From positions 1 to 46,841 of the forward strand of contig NZ_JACJRV010000056.1 of NCBI RefSeq assembly GCF_014697475.1: a DNA stretch of 46,841 nucleotides, given 5' to 3'. Within the stretch, counting starts at the first letter, position 1, and each line of letters begins with the position of its first letter. This document shows, piece after piece, positions 1-46,841 of the stretch. The position numbers were made by a program, and so were the translations under genes. The stretch is from Nostoc sp. FACHB-152. GTDB taxonomy: Bacteria; Cyanobacteriota; Cyanobacteriia; Cyanobacteriales; Nostocaceae. The notes below the pieces were generated by a model. It worked only from the letters and a program-made list of their open reading frames with translations, was not told where the DNA came from and did no database searches.

Positions 1-101
1 TTAAATAGAGCTTATTGCGAATAAATGCTCTTTTTCTTTTACCACAAATTGCTACACTCTTTGTAAGATAAGCATTCTAGACCATTTTGTCCCCCCGCAA
101 G
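1..101. mobile_element. MITE, second half (continues from 46741-46841 across the circle)
   Basis: Together with 46741-46841 this forms a 202-bp non-coding element. Its end at 72-101 matches the inverted end at 46741-46770 at 24 of 30 positions, sharing the block CTAGAATGC and ACAAAA. The 9 bases outside each end are identical (CGGGAGTAT). No transposase frame is present, so this is a MITE moved in trans. The parent IS family is not identified. Confidence 0.85.
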
Positions 102-110
102 CGGGAGTAT
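102..110. repeat. Target-site duplication of the MITE (copy 1)
   Basis: CGGGAGTAT directly abuts the inverted terminus at 101 and is identical to 46732-46740. Removing the MITE and one copy restores a continuous endonuclease reading frame, which is strong support that this is a true target duplication. Confidence 0.85.
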
Positions 111-21119: not shown

Positions 21120-21170
21120 CTAGTTATCGCTCATACAATAGCACGGGAGCATAGCTCTTAATCTTTAATA

Positions 21171-21644
21171 TTAGTTATTTGCCATCTTTGAAGTATTTTC
21201 CCCTCCTAACAGCATAATAGTTTCATATTCTTCCTCATTAAGATAACGATAGCTTTGGGGTGGACGTAAGTAAGATATTTTATCTTTTAACCGATTTAAT
21301 TCAATCGGGGTTTCAAATTTTTTCGCATTTATAAAATAAATTCCTACAGCAATTGATGCACCTTCATAATATTTATAAAAATCTTTGCGCTTGATGCCAG
21401 CATGGTCTTTAACTTGTTTCCATAATTCTTTTAAGTCATTTTTTGAAGCTGATTTTTCAATAACAAAATCTACTTCAAAAAAGCCTATAAAAGTTTTTTT
21501 TGGAGATGATACATATACAAAAACAATATCTCCTGTTTTTACACGAGTTCGTACCCTACGTAATTCCACTTTTTTTGTTCGGTCTTCAAAAATTTTATTG
21601 GCATACTCAGGTTTAACTGAAATTAATAGTATGTGACATGGCAT
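21171..21644 (-). CDS. ASCH-domain protein (PUA-like, RNA or modified-base binding)
   Basis: 157 residues. The opening ILLISVKPEYANKIFEDR, then KKVELRR and GDIVFVYVSSP, is the ASCH fold pattern, and YLRPPQSYRYL occurs near the end. ASCH domains are PUA relatives that bind RNA or modified nucleotides. Genes on both sides are co-oriented with short gaps (51 and 21 bases), so it belongs to the McrBC operon. A role in recognising modified bases for McrBC is inference. Confidence 0.75.
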   Translation of the reverse strand: MPCHILLISVKPEYANKIFEDRTKKVELRRVRTRVKTGDIVFVYVSSPKKTFIGFFEVDFVIEKSASKNDLKELWKQVKDHAGIKRKDFYKYYEGASIAVGIYFINAKKFETPIELNRLKDKISYLRPPQSYRYLNEEEYETIMLLGGENTSKMANN

Positions 21645-21665
21645 GACAATTTCTTACATGGAATA

Positions 21666-25992: not shown

Positions 25993-26077
25993 AGAAATAA
26001 TCCACCAGGGAGGTACTGCCCCTCCTATGACTGTGTTATCAGCACAGCGCCTCACTTTTCGGCTTCTGGTGGAAGGC

Positions 26078-26159
26078 GGAAGATGGAAGAATCGAACTCC
26101 CAGGTATTACCCTGCTCTAGTTTTCAAGACTAGTTGCCCTCCCTTGAGCAGCATCTTCC
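26078..26159 (-). tRNA. tRNA-Ser(UGA)
   Basis: Acceptor GGAAGAT/ATCTTCC, anticodon loop CTTGAAA, long class II variable arm and T loop TTCGATT. The structure looks normal. It is the last tRNA of the array, and no CCA is encoded. Confidence 0.9.
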
Positions 26160-26166
26160 ATTTAGG

Positions 26167-26241
26167 GGTGTCTGGCGGGACTTGAACCCGTTATGACTGG
26201 TTCCACAAACCAGCGCCGCGACCGCTTTGGCTTCAGACACC
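26167..26241 (-). tRNA. tRNA-His(GUG)
   Basis: Acceptor GTGTCTG/CAGACAC, loop TTGTGGA, encoded G-1 opposite C73, as required by HisRS. Normal cloverleaf. Confidence 0.92.
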
Positions 26242-26246
26242 ATCAG

Positions 26247-26321
26247 TGGAGCCAAGGGGATTTGAACCCCTAACCTCCTGTGTGCAAGACAGGCGCTCTA
26301 GCCATTTAGAGCTATGACCCC
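26247..26321 (-). tRNA. tRNA-Ala(UGC)
   Basis: Loop CTTGCAC. The acceptor carries the G3:U70 pair that specifies alanine, with A73. Normal T arm AGGGG/CCCCT. Confidence 0.92.
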
Positions 26322-26324
26322 ATG

Positions 26325-26399
26325 TGGCAGGAGTGAAGGGACTCGAACCCCTACAAATCGATTTAGAAGATCGATGCCCATCCATTAGGCGACACTCCC
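26325..26399 (-). tRNA. tRNA-Arg(UCU), CCA encoded
   Basis: Loop CTTCTAA on a 5-bp stem, G1:U72 wobble, G73 and a genomic CCA. The D loop is short but the T arm is normal. Confidence 0.88.
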
Positions 26400-26405
26400 A
26401 TCAAT

Positions 26406-26481
26406 TGGTAGCCCTGACAGGAATTGAAAGAGCGACTTCCTCTTTGTAAGAGAGGCACTCTCCCCACTGAGTTACAGGGCT
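26406..26481 (-). tRNA. tRNA-Val(UAC) with a broken T stem, CCA encoded
   Basis: Acceptor AGCCCTG/CAGGGCT, loop CTTACAA, A73 and CCA. The T stem should be 5 bp, but GCTCT faces CCTGT, leaving three consecutive mismatches next to the loop (positions 51-53). The same defect occurs in the Thr and Phe genes of this array. Confidence 0.75.
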
Positions 26482-26486
26482 ATGAA

Positions 26487-26558
26487 AGCGAGTGATGGGA
26501 CTCGAACCCATACGCTGAGTGTGGCGCACTCAGATGCTAGCCACTACATCACACCCGC
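26487..26558 (-). tRNA. tRNA-Gly(GCC)
   Basis: Acceptor GCGGGTG/CACTCGC, loop GCGCCAC, U73, normal T arm. No CCA. Confidence 0.9.
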
Positions 26559-26582
26559 ATTGACGAACTTATAAGGTTCAGA

Positions 26583-26610
26583 GCGATTGCCTTCGGCACG
26601 CTACGCGAAC
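26583..26610. repeat. Small dispersed repeat abutting tRNA-Gly(UCC)
   Basis: GCGATTGCCTTCGGCACG followed by CTACGCGAAC. It shares the 13-mer ACGCTACGCGAAC with the insertion at 27667-27679. Its last bases supply part of the 3' acceptor strand of the tRNA-Gly(UCC) gene, so the repeat has replaced or overlaps the original end. Confidence 0.65.
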
Positions 26611-26674
26611 GACGAGACTCGAACTCGTACCGTGAGTTTGGAAGACTCTGATGCTGCCTTTACACCACGACCGC
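26604..26674 (-). tRNA. tRNA-Gly(UCC), 3' end overlapped by a dispersed repeat
   Basis: Loop CTTCCAA, T arm ACGAG/CTCGT. The acceptor 5' strand GCGGTCG pairs with CGTTCGC except position 5:68 (T:T); the CGTTCGC strand is part of the repeat at 26583-26610. The D and anticodon arms closely resemble those of tRNA-Trp at 28326. Confidence 0.75.
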
Positions 26675-26682
26675 ACTAATTA

Positions 26683-26756
<74 letters not shown>

Positions 26757-26790
26757 AAAAGCAGACGGCGGGGACAGTCTGTATACTGGA

Positions 26791-26862
26791 CGCGGGGGTG
26801 AGAGTTGCACTCACCGTTTGCAGCTTATGAGACTGCCGAGCCGCTCTTGCTCTATCCCCGCA
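26791..26862 (-). tRNA. tRNA-Met-like (CAU)
   Basis: Loop CTCATAA, acceptor TGCGGGG/CCCCGCG with U1:G72, D stem GAGC/GCTC as in initiators (A11:U24), but no three G:C pairs in the anticodon stem. The T loop reads TGCAACT, with G in place of U55. A CAU anticodon could also be Ile after lysidine modification. It directly abuts tRNA-Leu(UAA) with no spacer. Confidence 0.7.
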
Positions 26863-26936
26863 TACCCCTGACAGGAATCGAACCTGCAACAAACCCGGTT
26901 TAAGCGGGCTACGTCTGCCAATTGCGTCACAGGGGT
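26863..26936 (-). tRNA. tRNA-Leu(UAA) with a short variable loop
   Basis: Acceptor ACCCCTG/CAGGGGT, A73, loop CTTAAAC, T arm GCAGG/CCTGT. The D arm is leucine-like (3-bp stem, 11-nt loop), but the variable region is only 5 nt; bacterial tRNA-Leu normally has a long arm. Confidence 0.75.
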
Positions 26937-26942
26937 AAAATT

Positions 26943-27017
26943 TGGTGGGCGCTACAGGGGTCGAACCTGTGTCAGCCTGATTAAGAGTCAGGAGCATAAC
27001 CGTTCTGCCAAACGCCC
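26943..27017 (-). tRNA. tRNA-Lys(CUU), CCA encoded
   Basis: Acceptor GGGCGTT/AGCGCCC, A73, genomic CCA, loop CTCTTAA, T arm ACAGG/CCTGT. Confidence 0.88.
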
Positions 27018-27033
27018 ATGTTTATTTGATATT

Positions 27034-27108
27034 TGGTGGGTCGCCCAGGGGTTGAACCTGGATAAGTCCGCTTAAAAGGCGGCTGCATACCCGCTCTGCC
27101 AACGACCC
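27034..27108 (-). tRNA. tRNA-Lys(UUU), CCA encoded
   Basis: Acceptor GGGTCGT/GCGACCC, A73, CCA, loop CTTTTAA. Closely similar to the neighbouring tRNA-Lys(CUU), suggesting tandem duplication with an anticodon change. Confidence 0.88.
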
Positions 27109-27112
27109 AAAT

Positions 27113-27190
27113 TGGTACTCCCGACAAGAGTTGAAAGAGTAAGAATTCCGTATTTCAAACGGAAGCGTTTACCAATTTCACTACAGGAGT
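27113..27190 (-). tRNA. tRNA-Phe(GAA) with Leu-like D arm and broken T stem, CCA encoded
   Basis: Acceptor ACTCCTG/CGGGAGT identical to that of tRNA-Leu(CAA) at 27369, loop TTGAAAT, A73, CCA. The T-stem strands ACTCT and CTTGT fail to pair at 51-53. The body looks derived from the Leu-type genes of the array. Confidence 0.7.
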
Positions 27191-27195
27191 ATGGT

Positions 27196-27209
27196 TGGGC
27201 AATTGCCCA
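27196..27209. repeat. Perfect 14-bp palindrome in a tRNA spacer
   Basis: TGGGCAATTGCCCA lies between tRNA-Phe and tRNA-Leu(UAG). As RNA it would self-pair and could guide processing or dimerise. Confidence 0.5.
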
Positions 27210-27210
27210 G

Positions 27211-27284
27211 TACCCTTGGTGGGAGTCGAACCCACAAAATCTGGTTTCTAAGACCAGCACGTTTGCCAGTTTCGTCACAAGGGC
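27211..27284 (-). tRNA. tRNA-Leu(UAG) with a short variable loop
   Basis: Acceptor GCCCTTG/CAAGGGT, A73, loop CTTAGAA, T arm GTGGG/CCCAC, 5-nt variable loop instead of a long arm. No CCA. Confidence 0.78.
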
Positions 27285-27290
27285 AAATGG

Positions 27291-27364
27291 TCGGGATGGT
27301 AGGATTTGAACCTACGGCTCCTTGTCCCCAAAACAAGGCTTCTAGACCACTGAATTACATCCCG
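27291..27364 (-). tRNA. tRNA-Pro(UGG)
   Basis: Acceptor CGGGATG/CATCCCG with C1:G72 and A73, loop TTTGGGG, normal D and T arms. Confidence 0.9.
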
Positions 27365-27368
27365 ATAT

Positions 27369-27446
27369 TGGTACTCCCGGTGGGATTTGAACCCACACAC
27401 AGACTGTTTTTGAGACAGCCGCCTCTTCCAATTGGGCTACAGGAGT
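27369..27446 (-). tRNA. tRNA-Leu(CAA) with a short variable loop, CCA encoded
   Basis: Acceptor ACTCCTG/CGGGAGT, A73, CCA, loop CTCAAAA, T arm GTGGG/CCCAC, about 6-nt variable loop. Confidence 0.78.
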
Positions 27447-27451
27447 ATAGG

Positions 27452-27525
27452 CTGGGAAGGAAGGAATTGAACCCTCAAACTTCGCATTCAAAGTGCGACG
27501 GCTTTGCCTGTTTGCCTACTTCCCA
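27452..27525 (-). tRNA. tRNA-Gln(UUG)
   Basis: Acceptor TGGGAAG/CTTCCCA with U1:A72 and G73, as expected for glutamine. Loop CTTTGAA. Confidence 0.88.
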
Positions 27526-27530
27526 ATAAA

Positions 27531-27606
<76 letters not shown>

Positions 27607-27615
27607 ATGTGCCAG

Positions 27616-27714
27616 TCCCCCAGGTCAGTATCGAACTGACGACCTCCTGTTCTTCTCCTATCGGAGACGCTACGCGAACAGACAGGCGCTACTACCAACT
27701 GAGCTACCAGGGGA
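27616..27714 (-). pseudogene. tRNA interrupted in the anticodon lo​op by a dispersed repeat
   Basis: Acceptor TCCCCTG/CTGGGGG, D arm GCTC..., anticodon stem CCTGT/ACAGG and T arm GTCAG/CTGAC are all present. Between the anticodon stem strands lie 31 nt instead of 7 (27651-27681). The extra sequence contains the dispersed repeat. The bases after CT read GTT, so Asn is possible, but an original Ile(GAU) or other G-starting anticodon cannot be excluded. No intron features are seen, so it is probably non-functional in decoding. Confidence 0.7.
27652..27679. repeat. Small dispersed repeat inside a tRNA anticodon loop
   Basis: It contains a 5-bp hairpin TCTCC-TATC-GGAGA and the 13-mer ACGCTACGCGAAC shared with 26598-26610. 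The unit resembles common Nostoc intergenic repeats. Confidence 0.65.
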
Positions 27715-27719
27715 TAAGG

Positions 27720-27793
27720 CGAGAACGGAGGGACTTGAACCCCCAACCTTCAGGTTCGTAATCTGAGATGCAATCCAGTTACACCACGTTCTC
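27720..27793 (-). tRNA. tRNA-Arg(ACG)
   Basis: Acceptor GAGAACG/CGTTCTC, G73, loop TTACGAA. A34 would need deamination to inosine to read all CGN codons it covers. Confidence 0.87.
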
Positions 27794-27799
27794 ATAAGG

Positions 27800-27887
27800 C
27801 GGAGAGAGAGGGAGTTGAACCCACAGTGAGATGCTGAATCCCACGACTGTTTAGCAAACAGCTTGCCCTGCCAATAGCAATCTCTCC
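27800..27887 (-). tRNA. tRNA-Ser(GCU)
   Basis: Acceptor GGAGAGA/TCTCTCC, G73, loop TTGCTAA, long variable arm. Class II structure retained. Confidence 0.88.
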
Positions 27888-27891
27888 ATAA

Positions 27892-27976
27892 TGGGCCGGG
27901 TAGGATTTGAACCTACGAAGCACATAGGCATCCGTTTTACAGACGGCTTCCTTCAACCGGACTTGGATACCGACCC
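27892..27976 (-). tRNA. tRNA-Tyr(GUA)
   Basis: Acceptor GGGTCGG/CCGGCCC, A73, loop CTGTAAA, long variable arm as usual for bacterial Tyr. Confidence 0.88.
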
Positions 27977-28015
27977 AAATCAACGTTCACTTTGCAGAAA
28001 TACATCCACAAGGGA

Positions 28016-28096
28016 TGGAGTGAAGGGGAATCGAACCCCTATCCAGCAAGCGTCCGTTTGTTGGTTTCGTTGCTGTCGATCGCCATTCGTCACCCC
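28016..28096 (-). ncRNA. tRNA-like gene without an anticodon arm; tmRNA-like ends
   Basis: Acceptor GGGGTGA/TCACTCC with G3:U70 and A73, and a perfect T arm AGGGG-TTCGATT-CCCCT. Between them no 5-bp anticodon stem with a 7-nt loop exists. Instead CAGCAA pairs with TTGCTG around a 20-nt loop. The 5' part GGCGATCGACAG followed by CGAAACC resembles the D-loop region of tmRNA, and G3:U70 is the alanine determinant used by tmRNA. A decayed tRNA-Ala or another interrupted tRNA is equally possible. Confidence 0.5.
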
Positions 28097-28103
28097 ATGA
28101 GGC

Positions 28104-28175
28104 AGTGCAGACGGGACTCGAACCCGCTAATTACACGCTTGAAAGACGTGCCGCTCGGCCACTTCGCTTCTGCAC
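28104..28175 (-). tRNA. tRNA-Glu(UUC)
   Basis: Acceptor GTGCAGA/TCTGCAC, loop CTTTCAA, T arm GCGGG/CCCGT. The discriminator is U where G is usual for glutamate. Confidence 0.82.
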
Positions 28176-28206
28176 CAAGAAAAAGATTTCTACCACATAC
28201 AAGTTT

Positions 28207-28304
28207 GAGAAGCTGTTTTTAACAGCCTCCAGGTTTGGCGGAGGCTGTAGGAGTCGAACCTACTTCGGTTTTTTTAGACCGATTAACCAATATGTAAGCT
28301 TCTC
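28207..28304 (-). pseudogene. tRNA-like gene with a hairpin inserted between T arm and acceptor, 8-nt A-rich anticodon loop
   Basis: GAGAAGCT at the 5' end pairs perfectly with AGCTTCTC at the 3' end. The T arm GTAGG-TTCGACT-CCTAC is perfect, but about 32 nt lie between it and the 3' acceptor strand, including a perfect 8-bp hairpin (28223-28247). The anticodon stem TCGGT/ACCGA encloses CTAAAAAA, 8 nt, so the anticodon (AAA or a 4-base reading) is uncertain. Insertion or aberrant rearrangement is likely. Confidence 0.55.
28223..28247. repeat. Perfect 8-bp hairpin inserted in a tRNA-like gene
   Basis: CAGCCTCC and GGAGGCTG flank a 9-nt loop. It splits the T arm from the acceptor of the surrounding tRNA-like gene. 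Confidence 0.6.
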
Positions 28305-28325
28305 GTGTTAGGACACGCAGTAGAA

Positions 28326-28396
28326 CGCACAGACAAGGATTTGAACCCTGACCAAAGGTTTTGGAGACCCTGATGCTGCCGTTACACCATCTGTGC
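28326..28396 (-). tRNA. tRNA-Trp(CCA)
   Basis: Acceptor GCACAGA/TCTGTGC, G73, loop CTCCAAA, T arm CAGGG/CCTTG. D and anticodon arms are similar to tRNA-Gly(UCC) at 26604. Confidence 0.88.
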
Positions 28397-28399
28397 ATT

Positions 28400-28474
28400 T
28401 GGTAGCAGCGATGGGAGTTGAACCCATATACTCTCGGTTATGAGCCGAGTACCTTGCCGTTAGGTGACGCTGCA
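28400..28474 (-). tRNA. tRNA-Met(CAU), CCA encoded, 1:72 mismatch
   Basis: Loop CTCATAA on CTCGG/CCGAG, T arm ATGGG/CCCAT, A73, CCA. The acceptor TGCAGCG faces CGCTGCT, leaving U1 opposite U72 unpaired, which is an initiator-like trait. Elongator, initiator or Ile(CAU) cannot be told apart. Confidence 0.8.
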
Positions 28475-28479
28475 ACGTC

Positions 28480-28554
28480 TGGAGTCCAGGGCGAGAATTG
28501 AACTCGCTGGGGGAGGTTTTGCAGACCAACACCCTACCATTAGGCGACCTGGAC
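28480..28554 (-). tRNA. tRNA-Cys(GCA), CCA encoded
   Basis: Acceptor GTCCAGG/CCTGGAC, U73 (cysteine determinant), CCA, loop CTGCAAA. The lower two anticodon-stem pairs are mismatched. Confidence 0.83.
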
Positions 28555-28559
28555 ATATT

Positions 28560-28636
28560 TGGAAGCCGTGACGAGAGTTGCACTCGCTTCTCTCTGAGTG
28601 AGAACAAGAGCGACTTTTCTATTCGTCCACAAGGCT
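28560..28636 (-). tRNA. Degenerate tRNA, probably Glu(CUC), CCA encoded
   Basis: Acceptor AGCCTTG/CACGGCT with one mismatch, U73, CCA, T stem GCGAG/CTCGT. The best anticodon arm is TCTTG-TTCTCAC-TCAGA, with one mismatch and a wobble. The T loop TGCAACT has G in place of U55, as in tRNA-Met at 26791. Confidence 0.5.
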
Positions 28637-28639
28637 ACA

Positions 28640-28715
28640 CGGGGATGATGGGATTTGAACCCACGTTATGAAGCTCGACAGGCGACTGCTTTAAACCGGA
28701 CTAAGCTACACCCCC
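28640..28715 (-). tRNA. tRNA-Asp(GUC), first gene of the array
   Basis: Acceptor GGGGGTG/CATCCCC, G73 (aspartate determinant), loop CTGTCGA, D stem GCTT/AAGC. Two mismatches occur in the anticodon stem. It is about 80 nt downstream of the predicted transcription start. Confidence 0.82.
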
Positions 28716-28781
28716 ACGTTGGGTGGCAATTATTCAGTTTTCATGGTTCTGAGGTGTTTGCTCTATGCCTTGTTGAGAGGC

Positions 28782-36734: not shown

Positions 36735-37236
36735 AGCGCAGCAGAGATTTGGGAAGTTGAATACTCTTGCTCTATCTTAGTTGAACAGGAGTGATTTTTC
36801 TTATAAGTAGTGTGAAAAGTGTGATTGTCGCACTATGTCCTGACACAGGTGAGGGAGGAGTTTGAAAAGTATTTGTCAGATAATTGACAATTGAAGAGGG
36901 TGATAGGGAGAAATTTTCTTCGATAAAAGTGTAAGGATTGACGAGGAAGTACGTGATCTGACGGTCAAAGAGCAGAGAGGTGACAGTAACGAACACCATC
37001 ATCCATCTTTTGGGGTTAGGGTGTTCCAGGGTGTGTTGAGCAGAGGTAGGGATGACAATAGTTGATAGCAATACTGCTATCAAAATCGTCTGTACTTGCT
37101 TCTATACCCCTGGTTGATAAATCATTGCTATCAGTGAGTGATATCAATTTTGAGCAGCTGGCTCTGGCGACAGCTACCCTTGTTTTGGGCTTACTCAAGC
37201 CCATGTTTTTGCTTTGATCAAGCTATGAGATGACAT
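36735..37236. other. Intergenic region between integrase and pPIWI-RE genes
   Basis: 502 bases. Short minus-strand frames here lack homology and codon pattern and are not called. The only structure seen is the palindrome at 37062-37083 with TGCTATCA echoed at about 37130. It probably holds the integrase promoter and the end of the pPIWI-RE operon. Confidence 0.4.
37062..37083. promoter_or_regulatory. Perfect 9-bp inverted repeat upstream of the integrase
   Basis: TTGATAGCA-ATAC-TGCTATCAA. A half-site TGCTATCA recurs about 50 bases further on. It looks like an operator; no T run for termination. Confidence 0.5.
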
Positions 37237-40200
37237 TTATTCGTCTTCTGAAGAATCTTCATCCACCATCAAAACATAATCTCCCATCTGCGCTGCTAGG
37301 TGAAGAACAATTGGACGAGCTAAGGTGTCTTTGTATTGCAATGCCATCCGACGCAATTCATGCGTCAATACTGCCCAATGCCAAGGTTCATCTTTTGGTT
37401 GTATGCAAGCCACTACTAACTCAAGTATTGCAGGGTTTGACCAGTGGAGTTGAGGTTTATCCAATTTACTGAAATCTCGTTTTTCCTTTGGCATTGTATT
37501 AGACTTTTGCCCAATACTAAGAAATATACGTTCATTGCTGTTCGTATTAAATAGTCCCTCTGTCGCTACACTTATTTGTTCAAGTTCCAGCAAATTATCA
37601 AACAACTTCACCTTCTGTTTCTCTTGATCATGCAGAGCATACCATTCTGGAGTTTCTCCATCTTGGCGTACCCGAACTACGCGAAGTTTTGACATCATTT
37701 GAGGAGATTCAGTGCCAAAAACTATCCCATCTTGAGATATTTGTGTATCTTGTAGCCATGTCCAATACCTTCGGATATTTTGAGCATCACAGAGTAGTAA
37801 TGTATCTTTACCCCTTAACTCTTTGGTTTGCAGCATTCGTTTGATAAATCCTTTTATCTCCTTTTTTAACTCGTTGTTATCTCCTGTAATAGATGTTCCT
37901 TTTGAGTTTATCTTTCTTAAAGCTTCATCGTAGGGTATCCAATCAGATAGACCGTTAAAAGTAGCTTCAATTGTTTGAGAGTCAGAACGCATTTTCACCA
38001 TAACTGGGATGAGTTGTTGTTTCCCATGCGCGCTGGTTTTAGAAGTGCGATTAACCAACCATAAACCTACATAAGTAAGAGGTTCAGGAAGAATTGCTGA
38101 TGGAATAACTATACGAGGTGGAGCTATCTGTACTCCCAGCGACCGGAGTAGGTCTAAAAAAGATGTTATGGCTTTCTGTGGTAGCTCTTCTTGTAATCTA
38201 TTAATTTCATTCTGTTCGTGCCTGTTTAACTCTCTTCCTTTATCTTTTGCTGTCTTTTCATATTCCTTTTTTAATTCCTCATGTTCAGGGACAAGAAACT
38301 TAGATACCCTGTCAATTTTATCTTGAACAAAGCCTAAGCGAATAGCTGCTAGGGGGTCTGTCCATTCAGGTTTCCAATGGTTTTCGCCATAAAGTTCAAC
38401 TAATACCCCTACTTTCCCTGTGACAGGTTGCATTTGATTAACAGTTTTTGCTACTTCAGCTTTTCTACTCTTAATAGCTTCTTCTCGTTGTTTGGAATTT
38501 GGTTTTTTTGTTTTATCTGTAGATAAAGCTAAACGTTCTGCTAATTTACCTATTTCTTGCGTGCGTATAGTTACAGTCAAATCTATATCTGGGAAATTAT
38601 GAATACCCGTTGTCGCTGTCTTCAACCCCAGGCAATACCATATCGCTTTTATAAGTGCATCCCGTGTTGACTCATTAATATACCAAATTTCGATGGTTAG
38701 CTCTTTGCCAATACAGTTACGTATGGCTTCACAAAGTCTTTTACTCTCTGAGCGGAGTTTTTCTGTAAATTCTTCTAATAAATTATCGTATCTAATTTTA
38801 AATTCTTCATCTGTTTCATCTTCTTTTTTATGAAAAGTATTTCTCTCTGATTCCTGTTTTATTAAAAGCTTTTCGTACCTAGCTTTAAATTGCTCCTCGG
38901 AAACGTTATATTTACTTTTAAGTTTATCTCTCTCTAATTCTTGTTTTTTTAAAAATTTATCGTACCTATCTTTAAATTGCTCCTCTGATTCCGCTTTTTT
39001 TCTTTTTGGGATACCCATAGTCCAAGATGTACCATCAGGCTTGGGTAAATCAAATATTTGAGCAGATTGCTTAGTATTTATTTGATAATTAAACCGCTCA
39101 TCTTCTATTAGTTCCCAATCATCTTTTAACAACAATGCTATTTGTTCAGCTAATTGACGACGGTTGGTTGGTGGCAATCCTTTACCTACTTTATGACCTG
39201 GAATTATCCCATCTTTGTAGGTAACACAAATGTTAGGAATATTTGAGAAATTAAGTGCTTGTGTGGGATTAGCTAAAATTTGCTCTGGGGTATATGGAAG
39301 CGGGTTGAATTGATCTAATAACCCAGCTAAGTTATTATTCCACTTAGGCTCTCCTTTCCATACCAGTGGAGCGACTTGAAAGTATTCGGTATAACCGTAA
39401 GGATTTAATCCCTTCCATTGAAGCTTGGTACGAATATACACAGAACTAGCTTGCCCTCCTGGTAGCAAACCAGTATCATTTCTACTGCACCACCGCCGGA
39501 TACTCATATCACATTGCAGTTGAGGATATGGCTGGAATGGAACCGTTTGTACTTTCAAAGTCAGAACTATTGAGTAATAGTAAGTATGTTTGTTTTCTGT
39601 GTACGATAGCGGAGGCCAAGATATCAACTCTGCTCCTGCTCCTTCTATTGGCGCACAGCGATAGAACTGAATTGTTTCATCACTTAATTTGAACTTTAAG
39701 TTTGGGTCACTCAGTTGTGTTGCTAGAATATCAGGCAATAGGATAAATCCATCTGCATTTTCAGTAATATTGGCGGTTCCATTAGCATATTTTTTCCATA
39801 ATTCCGTTTCTAGAGTCACCATTTCCCACTTGAAATTGTTAGGGTTCGACAGTTGCTGCATTACAGCTTGTCGTTGGTCAAAGGTTATCCCTTTCTTGCG
39901 CTTGTTTGGGTGTTCATCTGGAAACTCAGTATCTAGCCAATGAGAGAAAATTACTGATAATTTATCTATTGGAATTTCAACTGGACTATATAACCAATTT
40001 TTCTCCCAAATTTTACCAATGTAAATTAAACCAGGGATACTTGCCCGTAGAGCTTCATTGAGTGATGTGATGGGAATACCAACTTTATCTTTAGGGCGGC
40101 TATCTCTCTCGGCTACAAGATTTTTTAATGAGTCTTTAACTGTTTCTGGAAACTTCAGTGCATAAAAATTTTTAGCGGGTAAGTTGTGTTTGAGGCGGAA

Positions 40201-40239
40201 AGCACACAGGCGGATTTTGTTGTATTTAGGTGATGACAT
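37237..40239 (-). CDS. pPIWI-RE protein (prokaryotic PIWI)
   Basis: 1000 residues. The gene trio and ends match the pPIWI-RE family: an N-terminal X-type region, a MID-like part (about 510-560, KELTIEIWYINESTRDALIK), and an RNase H-like PIWI domain (about 610-1000) with strands GKVGVLVELYGE (609-620) and DTLLLCDAQNIRR (812-824), ending in HWAVLTHELRRMA (954-966) and PIVLHLAAQ. These proteins are predicted to use nucleic-acid guides or bind R-loops and restrict plasmids and phages. Between about 418 and 495 are three imperfect copies of EEQFKxRYDKFLKKQE-like coiled coil. It is last in the operon, 44 bases after the helicase. Confidence 0.75.
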   Translation of the reverse strand: MSSPKYNKIRLCAFRLKHNLPAKNFYALKFPETVKDSLKNLVAERDSRPKDKVGIPITSLNEALRASIPGLIYIGKIWEKNWLYSPVEIPIDKLSVIFSHWLDTEFPDEHPNKRKKGITFDQRQAVMQQLSNPNNFKWEMVTLETELWKKYANGTANITENADGFILLPDILATQLSDPNLKFKLSDETIQFYRCAPIEGAGAELISWPPLSYTENKHTYYYSIVLTLKVQTVPFQPYPQLQCDMSIRRWCSRNDTGLLPGGQASSVYIRTKLQWKGLNPYGYTEYFQVAPLVWKGEPKWNNNLAGLLDQFNPLPYTPEQILANPTQALNFSNIPNICVTYKDGIIPGHKVGKGLPPTNRRQLAEQIALLLKDDWELIEDERFNYQINTKQSAQIFDLPKPDGTSWTMGIPKRKKAESEEQFKDRYDKFLKKQELERDKLKSKYNVSEEQFKARYEKLLIKQESERNTFHKKEDETDEEFKIRYDNLLEEFTEKLRSESKRLCEAIRNCIGKELTIEIWYINESTRDALIKAIWYCLGLKTATTGIHNFPDIDLTVTIRTQEIGKLAERLALSTDKTKKPNSKQREEAIKSRKAEVAKTVNQMQPVTGKVGVLVELYGENHWKPEWTDPLAAIRLGFVQDKIDRVSKFLVPEHEELKKEYEKTAKDKGRELNRHEQNEINRLQEELPQKAITSFLDLLRSLGVQIAPPRIVIPSAILPEPLTYVGLWLVNRTSKTSAHGKQQLIPVMVKMRSDSQTIEATFNGLSDWIPYDEALRKINSKGTSITGDNNELKKEIKGFIKRMLQTKELRGKDTLLLCDAQNIRRYWTWLQDTQISQDGIVFGTESPQMMSKLRVVRVRQDGETPEWYALHDQEKQKVKLFDNLLELEQISVATEGLFNTNSNERIFLSIGQKSNTMPKEKRDFSKLDKPQLHWSNPAILELVVACIQPKDEPWHWAVLTHELRRMALQYKDTLARPIVLHLAAQMGDYVLMVDEDSSEDE

Positions 40240-40283
40240 AAATCAAATTATTTGTAAATTTGTGAAATGTTTACGGAAGAACA

Positions 40284-43200
40284 TCAGAAAAGATTTTTAG
40301 TTTTGGCGATCGCTTCATAAAATGGGCGATAAAGAGCTTGAACTATCTGCCTATCCCGTTGGGTAATCTGAAAATCATCCTCCTCAAAATAAGGTTGTAG
40401 CAAATCTCGGATGCCAATAAGGATACTTGTTGAAGGGGTATCCTCTTGTTCATTCATCTGTGCAACATTAAGCCCAAACTTGGCATCGCACCAAAAGAGT
40501 TCTGCATTACTACTGCCGCGAATAAGCCGACCTACTACCTGCCAAAGTGAAACAGCAATATCCCAATGCATAGCAGGTAAGTTTTTTTCATCAAGAGTTC
40601 TTAGCCTTACTGGTAGGTGTAGCAACCGCAACCATTGACGATAAGCTGTGTCTCGAAAATTATTACCTAAGTCTTCCAGATTTTCTGACTCAAATGTTTT
40701 GTAATTTTCAATTGCCCAACGGTTTATGGAGTGAATCGCATAACTGAGGTCATCAGGGCTTGGGTGGGGTAAAACCAGGAAGTAAGCTGCCCCAATTACT
40801 GCCATTCCTTTCTCATCAACAATATTGTGACCACGCTCTATCGCTTTTAGCGGGGCTATTAGAATTACCTTGTCAGGTTTATTGGCAAACTCAGATACTC
40901 GTCCTCTTTGCAATGTGTTATGACTTTCATTCTCTGAATCATCATCTAGCCATTCAGATTTATTATCATCTCTTGTTAAAGCTATAACTCGATTTCCCCA
41001 CCCTAGACGAACTAAATGTTCGTGGACTATTTTTACTTGTTCATAGCTATTAACTACCAACAATATTTTTCGTCCTTTAAGGTCTATTAGTTTCTGTTCT
41101 AAATATTCTTCCTCTACTAACTTCGTGACAATTTTCTCCAAGTTCTTCTGTTTTTTATCCCCTGTTCCTGATACAAAGATTGGTCGATTTTGCTCATCGT
41201 ATAACGGTAAAAACTCAGAGGAGATTGAAAATCCCTTATTAGTATTTGGTGACAGGACTCCGGTTACTGGTACATCAACGTGGTATGCCGGAGATTTACC
41301 CGCCCAACTTGTTCCTGACATCAGCAATATATGCGGACTTGCTATGTTGTCACTGGCGAACAAATCATTGAAATGTAGAAGTGACCAACGACCAACACCC
41401 GTACAACGAAAAAACCGCAGACTTCCTAACTGTTCTTTATAAGATTTGTGATACTGGAATGCCAACTGATTTCCCATTGGCATCGCGGGAATTATTGCGT
41501 TGTAGTCTGCGGGTGGTGCTTGAAACCACATTGAATCTTCTGCTTCTAGTTTGAGGGTATCTTGTACTTGCCTCCAGTGACGCATCATAAAGTAAAGTTT
41601 GTTTTGTAGAACGCAGACTAATAATGCAAACTCTAACTTAACGGCAATTTCTTGAATCTTCTGTGGTTCTAAAGGAATAGTGGCTTGTTTCTTGACCCAT
41701 TCAATAAGAGAATTTTTCTTACCACTGGCTTTATGAGTGAGGGTAAAAAGTAAATCCTTGTCATTGTCTAGATTATTTATATAAGGTTCAAATATATCCT
41801 TCATTAAATTATCGGCATTTTCTGTTCCGGCTAAATCAATAGCAACTTCTCGCAATAGCAACCAATCTGTAAAATATTTTTTACTATTTTGCCATTGAGA
41901 TAATTCAGGATAGTCCCCTCCTAACATCCAATAAATTTGGTCTGTGACTCGTTTAGCTTGTTGAGAAGCATCCCACCAATCGCTGACGATTTTTTTGCTA
42001 AGTGGTTGAGAATTTTGACGTACCAATTCAGCTTCAACCTTTTGCAAAACTTCATCTAACCAAGCATCTCTTGTTGGTCGGCGTAATGTTTGCTCTGGGC
42101 TAAATGCCTTATCTAGATAAGCTTGATATTGGTCTACTTCATCCACAATTACTAAGTCACTACGCCTCCAAACCAACTCAGCATAAAGTAAGCTTTCTTG
42201 GTTGATCTGCTGTGGCACCCTACTATAAATTAGACTTCCCGGTGTAGCAATCCAGATGGAACCTTTTACTAAATCTCGTTCTTTTTGATGGAAAGAGCAT
42301 ACGCTGTAAGCAGGACAAGCCATTTTCGCTTTTAGTGACTCTGACTGTTTCTCATCTGCCTCATTATTTTCTATATCCGTTGATTCTGATTTTTTAATAA
42401 GTTGTAGAGAGAGACAAGGTTGTTTGCCTATTTCAAACGGTTTTGACATTTCTGGGTTAACCAAACCGCTCAGCAAGCAAGTATTACTTATCCATTGAAA
42501 ACCAGGATGTTCTTGATTGAATGGTTCTTCAGGATGGTTATTATAAACAGCTTGATGTAATCGATTAATATGACTCTTTCTGTTTGAATTTCCTAAAATT
42601 GGGGCAACATCGGTTACTCCTACATCAGCAAAAGTCTTAGCCAATTCAAAAATTTGAAGGATATCTCCTACGATTAACGTGATGTGTAATCCTTTTCTTG
42701 CTGCCCAAACTGCCAGAACTTTCATTAAGTTGGATTTGCCTGATGATACCATCCCTACTAGATGCATCATCTTGTTGATGGTTAGAGATTCAACTTGGAC
42801 TAAACAATCATTATCATTAAAAACCTGTAATTTGACATTCTTTATCCATGTTTTCCAGTGGGATTTTAGCCCCCGCTTACTACATTGTCTATCCATCCAT
42901 GCTGCGGTATCTTCTAGCTCTCTCCAAGTTATACAAAGTGGCTCTCGTAGGGATTTACCACTTAAATTGTGTCCGTTTGGCGGAGACTTTACAAGAGCAG
43001 AAGGGATTGTAATTGTTTCTATGATTCCATTTACTTCACACTTATATGTCTGGTCAGCTTCTGCCCATTTTATTTCGCGTCTTTTATATAATGGGATAGG
43101 ATTTTTTAATGTTTTGGCATATACGTCAAATCTAAAATTGGCAATTGTTATATTGCTATTGATTTTAAACTCTTTTAAAGATTCAGATACTTCATAGCCC

Positions 43201-43493
43201 CTCTGGTCTGCGGCCAAATTACGATAATTATTCAGTGCTTCTGACCATACATAAGGTCTTCTATACTCTGTTAATAGATAACGCCCAGAGGCATACATTT
43301 TATGTTGCAACTGACTCCAGCTTTTGGATTCTGGAATAGAGAAAGGATAACCAGTCAGCAATACCCATAGACTACTTGCGGGAGCATTAGGAACTAAAGA
43401 ACTTAATAAATACAGTCCTAACTCTACATCACATAAATTCTCGTCTAATCCTTCTTTGATTAGTCGAGTCCGCCATTCTTTTGTATTTCTCAT
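40284..43493 (-). CDS. DinG-like SF2 helicase of the pPIWI-RE island
   Basis: 1069 residues from the ATG at 43493, which overlaps the stop of the upstream gene by 4 nt; an upstream TTG is less likely. Walker A is LVGMVSSGKSN (about 245-254), Walker B IVDEVD (about 449-454), and motif VI is QVVGRLIRGSS near the C-terminus. Four cysteines (about 339, 360, 393, 399) between Walker A and B are placed like the iron-sulphur ligands of XPD/DinG helicases. DinG-type helicases unwind R-loops and forked DNA, consistent with the predicted target of pPIWI-RE. The long N-terminal 240 residues are family-specific. Confidence 0.75.
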   Translation of the reverse strand: MRNTKEWRTRLIKEGLDENLCDVELGLYLLSSLVPNAPASSLWVLLTGYPFSIPESKSWSQLQHKMYASGRYLLTEYRRPYVWSEALNNYRNLAADQRGYEVSESLKEFKINSNITIANFRFDVYAKTLKNPIPLYKRREIKWAEADQTYKCEVNGIIETITIPSALVKSPPNGHNLSGKSLREPLCITWRELEDTAAWMDRQCSKRGLKSHWKTWIKNVKLQVFNDNDCLVQVESLTINKMMHLVGMVSSGKSNLMKVLAVWAARKGLHITLIVGDILQIFELAKTFADVGVTDVAPILGNSNRKSHINRLHQAVYNNHPEEPFNQEHPGFQWISNTCLLSGLVNPEMSKPFEIGKQPCLSLQLIKKSESTDIENNEADEKQSESLKAKMACPAYSVCSFHQKERDLVKGSIWIATPGSLIYSRVPQQINQESLLYAELVWRRSDLVIVDEVDQYQAYLDKAFSPEQTLRRPTRDAWLDEVLQKVEAELVRQNSQPLSKKIVSDWWDASQQAKRVTDQIYWMLGGDYPELSQWQNSKKYFTDWLLLREVAIDLAGTENADNLMKDIFEPYINNLDNDKDLLFTLTHKASGKKNSLIEWVKKQATIPLEPQKIQEIAVKLEFALLVCVLQNKLYFMMRHWRQVQDTLKLEAEDSMWFQAPPADYNAIIPAMPMGNQLAFQYHKSYKEQLGSLRFFRCTGVGRWSLLHFNDLFASDNIASPHILLMSGTSWAGKSPAYHVDVPVTGVLSPNTNKGFSISSEFLPLYDEQNRPIFVSGTGDKKQKNLEKIVTKLVEEEYLEQKLIDLKGRKILLVVNSYEQVKIVHEHLVRLGWGNRVIALTRDDNKSEWLDDDSENESHNTLQRGRVSEFANKPDKVILIAPLKAIERGHNIVDEKGMAVIGAAYFLVLPHPSPDDLSYAIHSINRWAIENYKTFESENLEDLGNNFRDTAYRQWLRLLHLPVRLRTLDEKNLPAMHWDIAVSLWQVVGRLIRGSSNAELFWCDAKFGLNVAQMNEQEDTPSTSILIGIRDLLQPYFEEDDFQITQRDRQIVQALYRPFYEAIAKTKNLF

Positions 43494-44758
43494 AATTGAC
43501 AAATTTTTAATTTTTTCTCAACTGCTTTTATAAAAGTCCCTTCAAACATTGCCTGAGACTTTTTTAATTTAACTGGACAGTGATTTATAAACTCTTGAAT
43601 ATACTCGTCTCCATACTCTCTAATTTCATCAGCAAATACAAAAAATGCTTCGTGGTATGGCTGATGGGGAAGTCTAGGTATAGGCTCGTTAACCTTTTTA
43701 GCTAAGTTATATGCAGATTCCCAAAACTTTACGTCAACTGCCCAGACTGTTTTATCAGGAAAGACAATATGCAGGTCGTATTTATCAAAATCTGGATAGA
43801 GAGTTACTTCTAATCCTAACTCCTTCATACGTTTTTCTATTCTTAGTTCTGCACACCCTGGTCGATGAATAAAATATCGCAGCCCTTTTTTCAGCCATAA
43901 AACTTGGTCATCTTTATCACATTCAAAAGGAACTGGAGCTTTTTTTTGTTTAGCACAGTGTTTGTTTTCACACTTTAATTGATTGTCCACAGTCCGATGC
44001 ATTAACCCGCCACAGTGACCGCAGCAATAAAACTTTCCCTGTTTTTTGTAAGAAGCAGGAGCTTCTTCATAGCTATCTTCTAAGACTTTTTGTAATGGCT
44101 TGAGTTGCAGAACTGCTTTTACATCTCGCTCGCCCTTTGTGATTACAGGGTTGCTAACAAGTAAACGGCGAAACTCTATATATAAGTTTGGGTTTTGTGC
44201 AGATTTTCTAAAAACTTCTTCCATCACCTCTTTTTGAATCCGCTCGGCTTCGCTAATATATGAACCATCTAACTCAATACAAAAACCACTAGGCTTTTGG
44301 TCTTCAACAAATTGAACATCTTTCCACTCTTCTGGACAGTTAATTTCAATAGTCCAATCTCTAATAGGATGTTCCGCCCAGTTACTGAGGAAATCTGGAA
44401 CCCCTTGAGGTTGGGTTTTACTTTGCATTACACAATTAGCTTGTAATTTTTCTACTCCTAGTTGCAGAACTGCTGGGTAAGGGAAAAGTTTTAGCTTTTG
44501 CATTTGTTGTGCATACTGAACTATTCCCTTAGCTATCTGACGCAGGGTTGGTTCATCTGTTGTCTTGACATTTTTTGAGCTTGCCTTTGGTTTTGTATCA
44601 GGTTTATCGCCTGGCACGTAGGAGTTAATGTCAAATCTTCTCTGCCCAGATGGGGTTCGGATTGCCTTAATTTTGCCCGCAGCTTCCCATCGTCTCAAGG
44701 AGTCAACGCTCACTCCCAGCCGTCGTGCTGCCTCTTTTGGGCTTACATACTCTGAAAT
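43490..44758 (-). CDS. REase-like subunit of the pPIWI-RE island: MerR-type HTH, zinc ribbon, PD-(D/E)XK
   Basis: 422 residues if started at ATT (44758). The frame before the first GTG (44713) reads SEYVSPKEAARRLG, the missing first part of a MerR-type winged helix (VSVDSLRRWEAAGKIKAIRT), so the GTG start would cut the HTH. ATT has GAGG 8 nt upstream and an extended -10 promoter. A zinc ribbon has CCGHCG and CENKHC (about 245-270), and the nuclease core is KYDLHIVF followed by WAVDVKFWE (Asp-x-Lys). It is the first gene of the operon, coupled to the helicase. Confidence 0.7.
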   Translation of the reverse strand: MSEYVSPKEAARRLGVSVDSLRRWEAAGKIKAIRTPSGQRRFDINSYVPGDKPDTKPKASSKNVKTTDEPTLRQIAKGIVQYAQQMQKLKLFPYPAVLQLGVEKLQANCVMQSKTQPQGVPDFLSNWAEHPIRDWTIEINCPEEWKDVQFVEDQKPSGFCIELDGSYISEAERIQKEVMEEVFRKSAQNPNLYIEFRRLLVSNPVITKGERDVKAVLQLKPLQKVLEDSYEEAPASYKKQGKFYCCGHCGGLMHRTVDNQLKCENKHCAKQKKAPVPFECDKDDQVLWLKKGLRYFIHRPGCAELRIEKRMKELGLEVTLYPDFDKYDLHIVFPDKTVWAVDVKFWESAYNLAKKVNEPIPRLPHQPYHEAFFVFADEIREYGDEYIQEFINHCPVKLKKSQAMFEGTFIKAVEKKLKICQL

Positions 44759-44784
44759 TGGTTTTTCCTCAATTCTTGTTTTTT

Positions 44785-44793
44785 ACTATAGCA
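44785..44793 (-). promoter_or_regulatory. Extended -10 promoter of the pPIWI-RE operon
   Basis: TGCTATAGT on the minus strand lies about 27 bases before the ATT start and leaves a leader of about 20 nt with GAGG. A -35 is not clear, as often with extended -10 promoters. Confidence 0.5.
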
Positions 44794-44806
44794 TTGTCTA
44801 GCTTTA

Positions 44807-44826
44807 CCTATGCAAACCTATGCAAA
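44807..44826. repeat. Tandem 10-bp repeat CCTATGCAAA in the pPIWI-RE promoter
   Basis: Two perfect head-to-tail copies lie upstream of the -10. One helical turn apart, they could bind the MerR-type HTH of the first gene product. Confidence 0.5.
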
Positions 44827-45033
44827 AATTTATGAAAATATCCATGAGGGGGGCTGGATAACTTATATATAAAGGCTTCTGGCTCTTCAAAAAAAAACCT
44901 TGATGCACTCCTTATGCTTCTGAAGCGTGCTGCGTAAGTCCTATCTCTTAAATATTCGCGATCGCACCCTTAGCTTGCCGCATTGAATACAGTCTGTTAT
45001 CTTGGACTGGTACAAATTTACTAAATAATCTAT

Positions 45034-45294
45034 ATGCCCCAAAATCGGCGTACTAGCGCAGAAATGGCTTCTTTAGCTTCTGTTATCCTTAACGATCCAC
45101 GTTCTAGTGCTACATCAAAGCAGCTTGCTGCATCTGTTTTGTCTCAGGCAGCACCTTCAGACCCTAGAGGTTATGGTCAACGCAGAACTAGCGCAGAAAT
45201 GGCAAGTCTTGCTAGTAAGGTTCTTGCCAGTCACTTCTCTACTGACATTGACAAAGAGTTGGCAGGTTCTGTCCTCTCTCAAAGGGCATATTAA
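45034..45294 (+). CDS. Small tandem-repeat protein, 86 aa
   Basis: Two copies of a repeat RRTSAEMASLAS followed 20-25 residues later by a LA(A/G)SVLSQ end (about 5-36 and 50-84). Short proteins with a T/S-x-E-x-A-S-x-A-S pattern are scattered in bacteria; I recall them as uncharacterised. A strong terminator follows at 45335. Not obviously linked with its neighbours. Confidence 0.6.
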   Translation: MPQNRRTSAEMASLASVILNDPRSSATSKQLAASVLSQAAPSDPRGYGQRRTSAEMASLASKVLASHFSTDIDKELAGSVLSQRAY

Positions 45295-45334
45295 TTCAAT
45301 TCCGCCTTCACTTGCGATCGCTCCATAGCGATTT

Positions 45335-45395
45335 AAAGGCTACTTGGATGCTCAAGCCAGGAAGTAATCTGATTTCAGACAAAAAGTAGCCTTTT
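45335..45395 (+). terminator. Terminator after the tandem-repeat protein gene
   Basis: AAAGGCTACTT (45335-45345) pairs perfectly with AAGTAGCCTTT (45384-45394) around 38 nt and ends in TTTT. The long loop is unusual; it may carry additional structure. Confidence 0.55.
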
Positions 45396-45429
45396 GTCCG
45401 TTTGTAAGAAAACTGAATATTCAGAAAAA

Positions 45430-45519
45430 TTACTTTATCTTATTGACAAAATATTCTATATCTTCCAAAGCTTTTTCATAGTTTCCACTGGGAAGATTTA
45501 CTTCTGTTCCATCTGGCAT
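45430..45519 (-). CDS. Very small ORF after the methyltransferase, 29 aa
   Basis: MPDGTEVNLPSGNYEKALED and IEYFVNKIK, with an in-frame GTG four codons upstream. It lies downstream of the methyltransferase on the same strand. Composition is protein-like; it may be a relic of a longer gene. Confidence 0.35.
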   Translation of the reverse strand: MPDGTEVNLPSGNYEKALEDIEYFVNKIK

Positions 45520-45561
45520 TTTATATACCACTAACTTAAATCACCGCTAGTTCTAAACTTT

Positions 45562-46404
45562 TTATACAACTTCCATAATTGTAGGCAAAATGTATGATTC
45601 AACAGGATAGTTAGTGATGAACAGCTCCTTGCCTTTGTCTGCCTTCCCCTGTTTGTAGTTGTTCATCCCGTATTGCAACTCCCATTCATAAATGTAGGCA
45701 AAGGCAAAGTTACGCCGCACTTGTTCACAATTATCGTAAGTGATCAACCATTTATGTGAACATTCCGCCATCAGCTTGGCAAAGCGAGAATGGTCAAAAC
45801 AGGTATGCAGATCACCTTTCTTACCATAAAGCTTAGATTGAGTCTTGCTGAGATAAGGTGGATCTAGAAAGATAAATACATCATCCCCTGGTTCAGTAAG
45901 TAGGGTGCTGTAATCTAAGTTAGTCACACGGGTATTAATAAAACAACCATCCAAGGCTGCTAACCGCTCAATCGAAGAGTCTGTAAACCGACTTTTGAAA
46001 GAAGCACTACTATAACCGCCACTCTCAATCGTTCCCGAAAAGGTAATCCGGTTAAGAACAAAGAACCGCACCGCACGATATAGTGGACTCATGGTACTTG
46101 TATCTGCGGCAGCGAGAGATTTAAACAAGGCACGTCCATCTGTTGTCTGTTTTTTTACTTTCCAGACAGACTCAACTAGCTCTGGTAGATTAGTTTTGAC
46201 CATGAACCAGAAGTAATACAGTTCTGGGTTGAGATCATTAACCCAGCAAGGCATACTAGGATGCTGCTGTGAAACATGAAAAAATACAGAACCTCCGCCA
46301 ACAAAAGGTTCGCGGAACTCCTTAAATTTAGGAGGTAGGTAGTGAGCAATTTGAGGAATTGCCTTTTGTTTACCGCCGGGATAACGTAATGGACTTTTAA
46401 GCAT
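45562..46404 (-). CDS. DNA adenine methyltransferase, D12 class (Dam-like)
   Basis: 280 residues. SPLRYPGGKQKAI (about 4-16) and REPFVGGGSVFFHV (about 32-45) are the SAM-binding motifs, and FLDPPYLSKTQ (about 180-190) the catalytic DPPY, typical of D12 N6-adenine methyltransferases. It overlaps the C-terminal endonuclease fragment by 8 nt, so it was the modification half of a type II system. With the endonuclease broken by the MITE it acts as a solitary methylase, protecting the plasmid from enzymes with the same site. Confidence 0.85.
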   Translation of the reverse strand: MLKSPLRYPGGKQKAIPQIAHYLPPKFKEFREPFVGGGSVFFHVSQQHPSMPCWVNDLNPELYYFWFMVKTNLPELVESVWKVKKQTTDGRALFKSLAAADTSTMSPLYRAVRFFVLNRITFSGTIESGGYSSASFKSRFTDSSIERLAALDGCFINTRVTNLDYSTLLTEPGDDVFIFLDPPYLSKTQSKLYGKKGDLHTCFDHSRFAKLMAECSHKWLITYDNCEQVRRNFAFAYIYEWELQYGMNNYKQGKADKGKELFITNYPVESYILPTIMEVV

Positions 46405-46740
46405 AAGGAATTATCGTAGCAGGAAGCGGATTTTTTAGTGCTTTAGTATCAAATTTCAAACTAGGAGAGTTTTTAATTTGGCTGGATGCGGTATGTAAGC
46501 GCATAGAAATTTCCCATCCATTATTAAAAATCAAATTTACATACTGTCTGTTGACCGTTGCTATCACATTAGTAGGGATTTGGATTTGTGCAAACTGCTG
46601 AATAGTCAGGGTTTTGGCGTGAGTATCAACAATAATTTTGTAGTAATTCACATCACCAACAAGGTACTGAAATAACTTAGTGGCACAAATGGAAGCATGG
46701 CTATTAATAAATTGGCTCACCAAATGACAGACGGGAGTAT
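46397..46740 (-). pseudogene. Type II restriction endonuclease, C-terminal part, cut by the MITE
   Basis: The frame from the target duplication reads TPVCHLVSQFINSHAS, then NYYKIIVDTHAKTLTIQQF, and finishes with NGWEISMRLHTASS and SPSLKFD, which resembles the C-terminal end of type II endonucleases. Without the MITE it continues the N-terminal half at 102-627. Internal TTG/GTG codons could start a 108-residue fragment but not an active enzyme. Confidence 0.75.
46732..46740. repeat. Target-site duplication of the MITE (copy 2)
   Basis: CGGGAGTAT, identical to 102-110, abutting the MITE end at 46741. Confidence 0.85.
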
Positions 46741-46841
46741 CTTAAGGGGCTACAAAAAGGGCTAGAATGCAGACAGAATAAGTCTCATAGCTCTTTGACC
46801 TTGTTGGTAGAAAGGACGCTTATTAGGACTTAATGTCAATA
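46741..46841. mobile_element. MITE, first half (continues at 1-101 across the circle)
   Basis: The inverted end CTTAAGGGGCTACAAAAAGG plus GCTAGAATGC (46741-46770) matches the complement of 72-101. Total length across the junction is 202 bp. No coding frame. Confidence 0.85.

Follow-up and report, generated by a model that had tools for sequence, protein, structure and literature searches.

A complete pPIWI-RE operon on a Nostoc-type plasmid, with an apparently cutting-dead PIWI protein and a nuclease that may bind its own promoter

Which protein of a pPIWI-RE system cuts DNA, and what purpose is served by the helix-turn-helix (HTH) domains fused to its nuclease? These three-gene systems were predicted in 2013 by Burroughs, Iyer and Aravind to restrict invading DNA, guided by RNA or directed by R-loops (PMC3702460). 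They link Argonaute-like sensors to restriction, and have almost no experimental record in the literature searched. Both points are made directly testable by an intact copy in Nostoc sp. FACHB-152, of which named strains have very close relatives. The copy lies on contig NZ_JACJRV010000056.1, which was analysed over its whole length of 46,841 bp (the window) and belongs to an 8.6-Mb, 190-contig genome. The copy is best read, with a probability of roughly 0.6, as a complete pPIWI-RE restriction-like defence operon on a relaxase-carrying Nostoc-type plasmid, in which the PIWI protein would act as the sensor, the restriction endonuclease (REase) would act as the cutter, and the operon would be self-repressed. 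The triad consists of three adjoining minus-strand genes (37237-44758), in the published order REase, DinG helicase, PIWI:

43490..44758, minus strand: REase gene of 422 codons with an ATT start; MerR-type HTH, Y domain, zinc ribbon and PD-(D/E)xK-like nuclease domain (Pfam, PADLOC)
40284..43493, minus strand: DinG-like superfamily 2 (SF2) helicase, 1069 aa; its ATG overlaps the REase stop (ATGA) (Pfam, PADLOC)
37237..40239, minus strand: pPIWI-RE protein, 1000 aa, with X, MID and RNase H-fold PIWI domains (Pfam, PADLOC)

Profile searches had been named beforehand as the check on this assignment, and the pPIWI_RE families were matched in both Pfam and PADLOC. The curated Pfam cut-offs were exceeded by all three proteins: PIWI matched pPIWI_RE_X, RNaseH_pPIWI_RE and MID_pPIWI_RE (E 1.1e-55, 6.8e-54 and 1.4e-12), DinG matched pPIWI_RE_Z (1.1e-36), and the REase matched pPIWI_RE_REase, pPIWI_RE_Y and MerR (4.5e-31, 4.6e-24 and 1.7e-11). 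PADLOC was concordant (PprPIWI 1.3e-129, PprDinG 1.5e-247, PprRE 1.2e-51). Gene order and architecture agreed with those of the bacterial family in PMC3702460, confirming at the level of gene order and domains that the triad is a complete three-gene system of a known kind, the class to which an earlier note made from the DNA letters had assigned it. That note had also described one coupled operon, which held in part: the REase and DinG reading frames overlap by 4 nt (ATGA), whereas DinG and PIWI are separated by 44 nt with no clear Shine-Dalgarno sequence by eye, so that tight coupling is seen only for the REase/DinG pair. In one relative (L068, 3965-9139), a single open frame of 1725 aa spans DinG and PIWI, a possible fusion.

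Relatives were collected as 58 distinct match rows, from which 15 weak, fragmentary or duplicate rows were left out. The 43 kept rows comprised the window, three loci (L002, L004 and L038) and 38 fetched regions, with two rows falling in a single region. Alignments drawn from 44 sources contained 36 full-length PIWI, 38 REase and 36 DinG proteins, and gave the following positions in the window:

38059..38061, minus strand: W727, position of the first catalytic Asp of Argonautes, apparently lost; opposite D528 of the prokaryotic Argonaute (pAgo) L095 (hhalign)
37786..37788, minus strand: D818, second catalytic Asp position, apparently kept; opposite pAgo D595 (hhalign)
37420..37674, minus strand: span of the family-defining R (R856 or R858) and E940 (alignment of 36 PIWI)
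43727..43735, minus strand: REase D342-x-K344, candidate catalytic residues, with D325 and D328 upstream (all 38/38)
43955..44026, minus strand: zinc ribbon region, C245/C246, C249, C263, C268 (alignment of 38 REases)
42732..42755, minus strand: helicase Walker A GMVSSGKS, residues 247-254 (GK[ST] 36/36)
42297..42479, minus strand: candidate Fe-S cluster region, C339, C360, C393, C399 (all four 36/36)

The catalytic positions of PIWI were mapped by profile alignment (hhalign), running over MID and PIWI, to 11 full-length cyanobacterial pAgos (27 loci were read on one strand, 16 of which gave no full-length protein). Where a catalytically active PIWI or Argonaute protein has two Asp residues, this low-probability mapping placed W727 at the first position and D818 at the second. 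The residue matching W727 was D in 10 of the 11 pAgos; in contrast, column 727 held an acidic residue in 0 of the 36 PIWI proteins and drifted among T, Y, A, W, H, F, R and K. By eye, Asp was also missing from this position in seven PIWI proteins encoded on named non-cyanobacterial plasmids. Column 818 was D in 19 proteins, E in 14, H in two and S in one, and the fourth position (Q968 in the window) varied among H, Y, W, Q and F. The family-defining residues were nearly invariant (R856 and R858 36/36, E940 35/36). Another candidate for the first catalytic Asp, position 730 (N in the window, D in L004), was rejected, since hhalign puts W727 opposite the pAgo Asp. PIWI catalytic residues are retained in a subset only (PMC3702460), to which PsPIWI-RE of Pseudomonas stutzeri belongs (D525, D610; PMC10991935), and the alignment suggests that the PIWI proteins of the cyanobacterial clade lie outside that subset and are cutting-dead.

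The motifs of the other two proteins were intact. D325, D328, D342 and K344 were invariant in the 38 REases, and the zinc ribbon cysteines were fully conserved at C246, C249 and C268, with C263 in 32 and C245 in 10 proteins. All 36 DinG proteins had the GK[ST] and DE motifs and the four cysteines that the earlier note had picked out as candidate iron-sulphur ligands. A PIWI protein lacking the first Asp, beside intact helicase and REase motifs, indicates that the REase is the likely cutter.

Some further features of the PIWI genes were recorded. Residues 414-500 of the window protein form a charged insert between X and MID that is present in the MerR clade, and it is shortened or different in the four members shown of other classes. 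In plasmid triads of Bradyrhizobium (L090, 8886-14865) and Microvirga (L091, 8906-14883), the annotated PIWI coding sequences (CDS) are very long, about 9.3 and 10.2 kb, and the RNase H domain lies within the first 1000 residues. Tandem Repeats Finder found no strong array within the window PIWI gene, and sequence searches for PIWI or DinG gave no relative in the Protein Data Bank (PDB) up to E 1. Rfam at gathering cut-offs returned tRNAs only, hence no guide RNA of a described family.

The second question concerns the REase N-terminus and the DNA in front of it, where four features were located:

44633..44758, minus strand: MerR-type HTH, REase residues 1-42 (PF00376, E 1.7e-11, residues 7-42)
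44767..44770, minus strand: Shine-Dalgarno-like GAGG, 8 nt before the ATT; equal spacing in 7/7 orthologues
44785..44790, minus strand: candidate -10 element TATAGT, by eye; a TATA lies 27-35 nt before the ATT in 7/7
44807..44826, minus strand: operator-like tandem direct repeat TTTGCATAGG x2, 10-bp period, two perfect copies; kept in orthologues

The MerR match begins at residue 7, before the first conventional start (GTG, 44713) at residue 16, so the unusual start that the earlier reader had taken, the ATT at 44758, fits. This ATT was kept in 7/7 orthologues, and in the 16 codons from it to the GTG position variable sites numbered 3, 2 and 9 by codon position, mostly third. The RefSeq start is identical in plasmid pTCL26-01_D and later in pNe_2. 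Translation would then begin from an AUU codon. PDB matches to the REase numbered five, all within the HTH.

The role of the fused HTH was left open in 2013, as either autoregulation or specificity (PMC3702460). When the 150-bp region was shuffled 5000 times with dinucleotides preserved, 4 shuffles reached the TTTGCATAGG tandem repeat, and MerR-class orthologues whose DNA farther upstream has largely diverged retain two or three copies of its type. Mean identity across the class was 82-87% on the repeats vs 33-42% in blocks 30-60 nt farther upstream (six loci; L057 is without the core). An operator-like site was found near the start in 7/7 MerR-class loci, counting the most divergent, L057, where only a weak inverted match with three mismatches was seen. 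Other REase classes had their own motifs near the start: GGAAACATTGGAAACAT repeats in 7/7 of a LexA-like class (a weak label: of three proteins scanned, one matched, at E 0.035), and a TTTACATCATTTAATGTAAA palindrome in 10 of 13 members of a class with a long N-terminus and no Pfam match there. None of the three motifs was near the start in the HTH-less loci (0/11), and no class carried another class's motif there (38 loci). Away from the start, each locus had 0-2 further matches per motif. This table covers 38 of the 44 loci; L046, L062, L063, L066, L068 and L070 were omitted (REase absent, cut, split or unclassed). Classes were taken from the REase alignment, with Pfam run on 2/7 MerR, 3/7 LexA-like, 3/13 long and 3/11 HTH-less members.

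The neighbouring regulators followed a complementary distribution. An Xre regulator adjoins 8 of the 11 HTH-less REases vs 1 of 29 HTH-fused loci (L042), two of the latter, L046 (contig end) and L063 (split gene), being hardly informative. The other regulators beside HTH-fused loci, among the families listed (25/42), were one AraC-type HTH and one sigma factor. An IrrE-like M78 peptidase stood alongside Xre in all five HTH-less loci scanned for it, and in L041, L052, L064, L069 and L072 the two are paired or fused beside HTH-less triads; the pairing suggests a protease-triggered switch. A divergent WYL-domain gene was present in three of seven non-cyanobacterial plasmid triads examined (of 14 such records). 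Three N-terminus classes, each with its own operator-like site, and Xre beside the HTH-less REases favour autoregulation by the fused HTH, as far as comparison of the loci can tell.

Several observations weigh against the proposed roles of PIWI and the HTH. The hhalign run that mapped the first Asp had a low reported probability (5.8, E 0.0065). AlphaFold2 (AF2) models from the window and L002-L004 failed, with mean pLDDT of 33.4 for PIWI and 40.8 for the REase, the latter good only at residues 1-47. A relative, PsPIWI-RE of Pseudomonas stutzeri DSM4166, was assayed in 2022 and actively cuts DNA under RNA guidance, for which it needs D525 and D610; its knockout affected survival under ciprofloxacin, with raised sensitivity to the drug and more filamentation (PMC10991935). 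Tandem runs as strong as the TTTGCATAGG repeat (at least 11 matches, period 8-12) occur at six other plus-strand places of the window, so the repeat alone is unconvincing. The operator motifs were counted in the very sequences that had served to define them, and the members of a class are relatives of one another. Counted by lineage, the regulator exclusion was 3/5 vs 0/3 (P = 0.20, with L042's fused class scored as without); Fisher values treat related loci as independent and are descriptive only. A sigma-70 scan omitted the proposed -10 element upstream of the REase and listed an overlapping weaker site, and its sites were not in excess over shuffles (24 vs 23.4).

A plasmid origin of the window, as the earlier note had proposed, is well supported. 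VapE-like, Mob_Pre relaxase, actin-like and ParA-type genes provide replication-, partition- and mobilisation-type functions, a plasmid relative exists (pTCL26-01_D), and the end elements are multicopy: the genome has 34 matches to the last 101 bases and 27 to the first 101, own copies included, many at contig ends. The first part of a HaeIII nuclease profile was matched by window 52-627 and the last by 46397-46723, and against pTCL26-01_D the two ends are adjoining parts of one HaeIII-type nuclease gene, overlapping by 7 bases. Most simply, this is read as a circular plasmid that the assembly left open at an insertion sequence within that gene; the circle, and the assignment of both end sequences to one element, are themselves part of this reading. 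The gene is split across the contig ends (52-669 / 46397-46741), apparently by the insertion sequence, and its adenine-methylase partner (45562-46404) looks intact. A row of a McrC-like gene, an AAA ATPase, a weak EVE-domain match (below cut-off) and a GNAT-domain protein (18271-23795) would form a second, type IV restriction-like module. The window also has 24 densely packed tRNA genes with many different specificities (26075-28716), and a 776-aa open frame on another contig of the genome matched the Piwi domain of the classical pAgo family (G000:C132:16256-17125).

Among 145 genomes of the same family, 45 have the PIWI domain, as do 9 of 292 in a phylum sample; the two samples overlap in part. 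Matches to all three genes were present in 42 of the 44 sources, some of them broken. tblastn against PLSDB (72,556 records) hit six records with PIWI and 25 with DinG, and single-protein scans of viral_contigs with three PIWI queries gave no relative. The earlier note's suggestion of plasmid-versus-plasmid conflict was set aside as beyond the evidence; 13 of the 38 fetched relatives lie on contigs of at least 1.9 Mb, showing that carriage on a plasmid is no hallmark of the system. Identity to pTCL26-01_D is 98.4% over the block 36771-45526, whereas the adjacent recombinase is 88.5% identical and most of the rest unmatched, a pattern indicating that the island was exchanged recently as a block of roughly 10 kb.

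These data bear on an alternative, that the island has its role not in defence but in replicating the plasmid or chromosome and clearing R-loops, with PIWI and DinG resolving RNA-DNA hybrids and the REase processing ends. DinG acts on R-loops (PMC3702460), and the ciprofloxacin phenotype of the P. stutzeri knockout makes a role in replication or repair possible. The patchy distribution, the recent exchange between otherwise diverged plasmids, and the McrBC-EVE and restriction-modification genes on the same plasmid make it improbable here, though it fares best of the alternatives. Somewhat less probable is that the fused HTH gives the nuclease target-DNA sequence specificity, the second option of 2013 (PMC3702460). 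The HTH does sit within the nuclease chain, so that bound sites would be near the cutter; however, each class has a repeat at its own promoter with few matches elsewhere, and a separate Xre regulator accompanies most HTH-less cyanobacterial triads. The least likely is that PIWI has kept nuclease activity through a rearranged active site, the REase only processing its products. In its favour, D818 is kept and PsPIWI-RE cleaves with D525 and D610 (PMC10991935); against it, the first-Asp column is devoid of acidic residues, the fourth-position column varies and the REase D and K residues never vary.

A nuclease-dead sensor with an autorepressed effector is plausible, and a restriction-like defence operon would work as follows. 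PIWI, lacking the first Asp, would bind a nucleic-acid guide or an RNA-DNA hybrid and sense without cutting; the DinG helicase would unwind or translocate the recognised structure; and the zinc-ribbon REase would cut the DNA. The MerR-type HTH may bind the 10-bp direct repeats upstream of its own start, repressing the operon, and the AUU start codon may keep REase translation low. A more specific proposal, offered tentatively and with rather less confidence than the operon reading, is that the REase is its own operon's repressor through at least three separate N-terminal captures, each with an operator. Invading DNA would draw the complex off the promoter and raise its expression, making the system a self-titrating defence switch whose resting expression AUU would keep low in the MerR clade.

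Among known systems, the closest is the 2013 island, which shares the three genes, their order and the domains X/MID/PIWI, Z/DinG and Y/ZnR/REase; a MerR fusion is among the four HTH types listed there, and no family-level difference was found from the bacterial family as described there (PMC3702460). New relative to 2013 are the missing first Asp in the clade, the AUU start and promoter repeats matched to the N-terminus class. Among the papers listed in a search of literature without preprints and most subscription papers, two dealt mainly with this family (PMC3702460 and PMC10991935), and none was on operators or start codons of a pPIWI-RE system. The earlier note's description of the class as little studied experimentally was true of the literature searched, apart from the one PIWI-RE protein assayed (PMC10991935). 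Like the window PIWI, PsPIWI-RE is encoded directly after dinG; it cleaves via D525/D610, whereas the window protein appears to lack the first Asp, a position assigned from an alignment made up of other proteins than PsPIWI-RE. Plasmid pTCL26-01_D of Nostoc sp. TCL26-01 (NZ_CP040301) carries the island beside the same tyrosine recombinase and D12 methylase neighbours, and differs in that its HaeIII-type nuclease gene is one annotated CDS and most other plasmid DNA is diverged or unmatched. BldC of Streptomyces is a MerR-like winged HTH protein that binds tandem direct repeats head to tail (PMC5859096); its repeats are 9 bp compared with 10 in the window, it stands alone with 68 residues, and the REase HTH matched its chains 6amk and 6ama weakly (E 0.029 and 0.036), behind 8jbs and SoxR. 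CvkR, a MerR-type repressor of cyanobacterial CRISPR-associated transposon (CAST) systems, offers a parallel, in which a CRISPR-derived system is controlled by a MerR regulator (PMC9938897).

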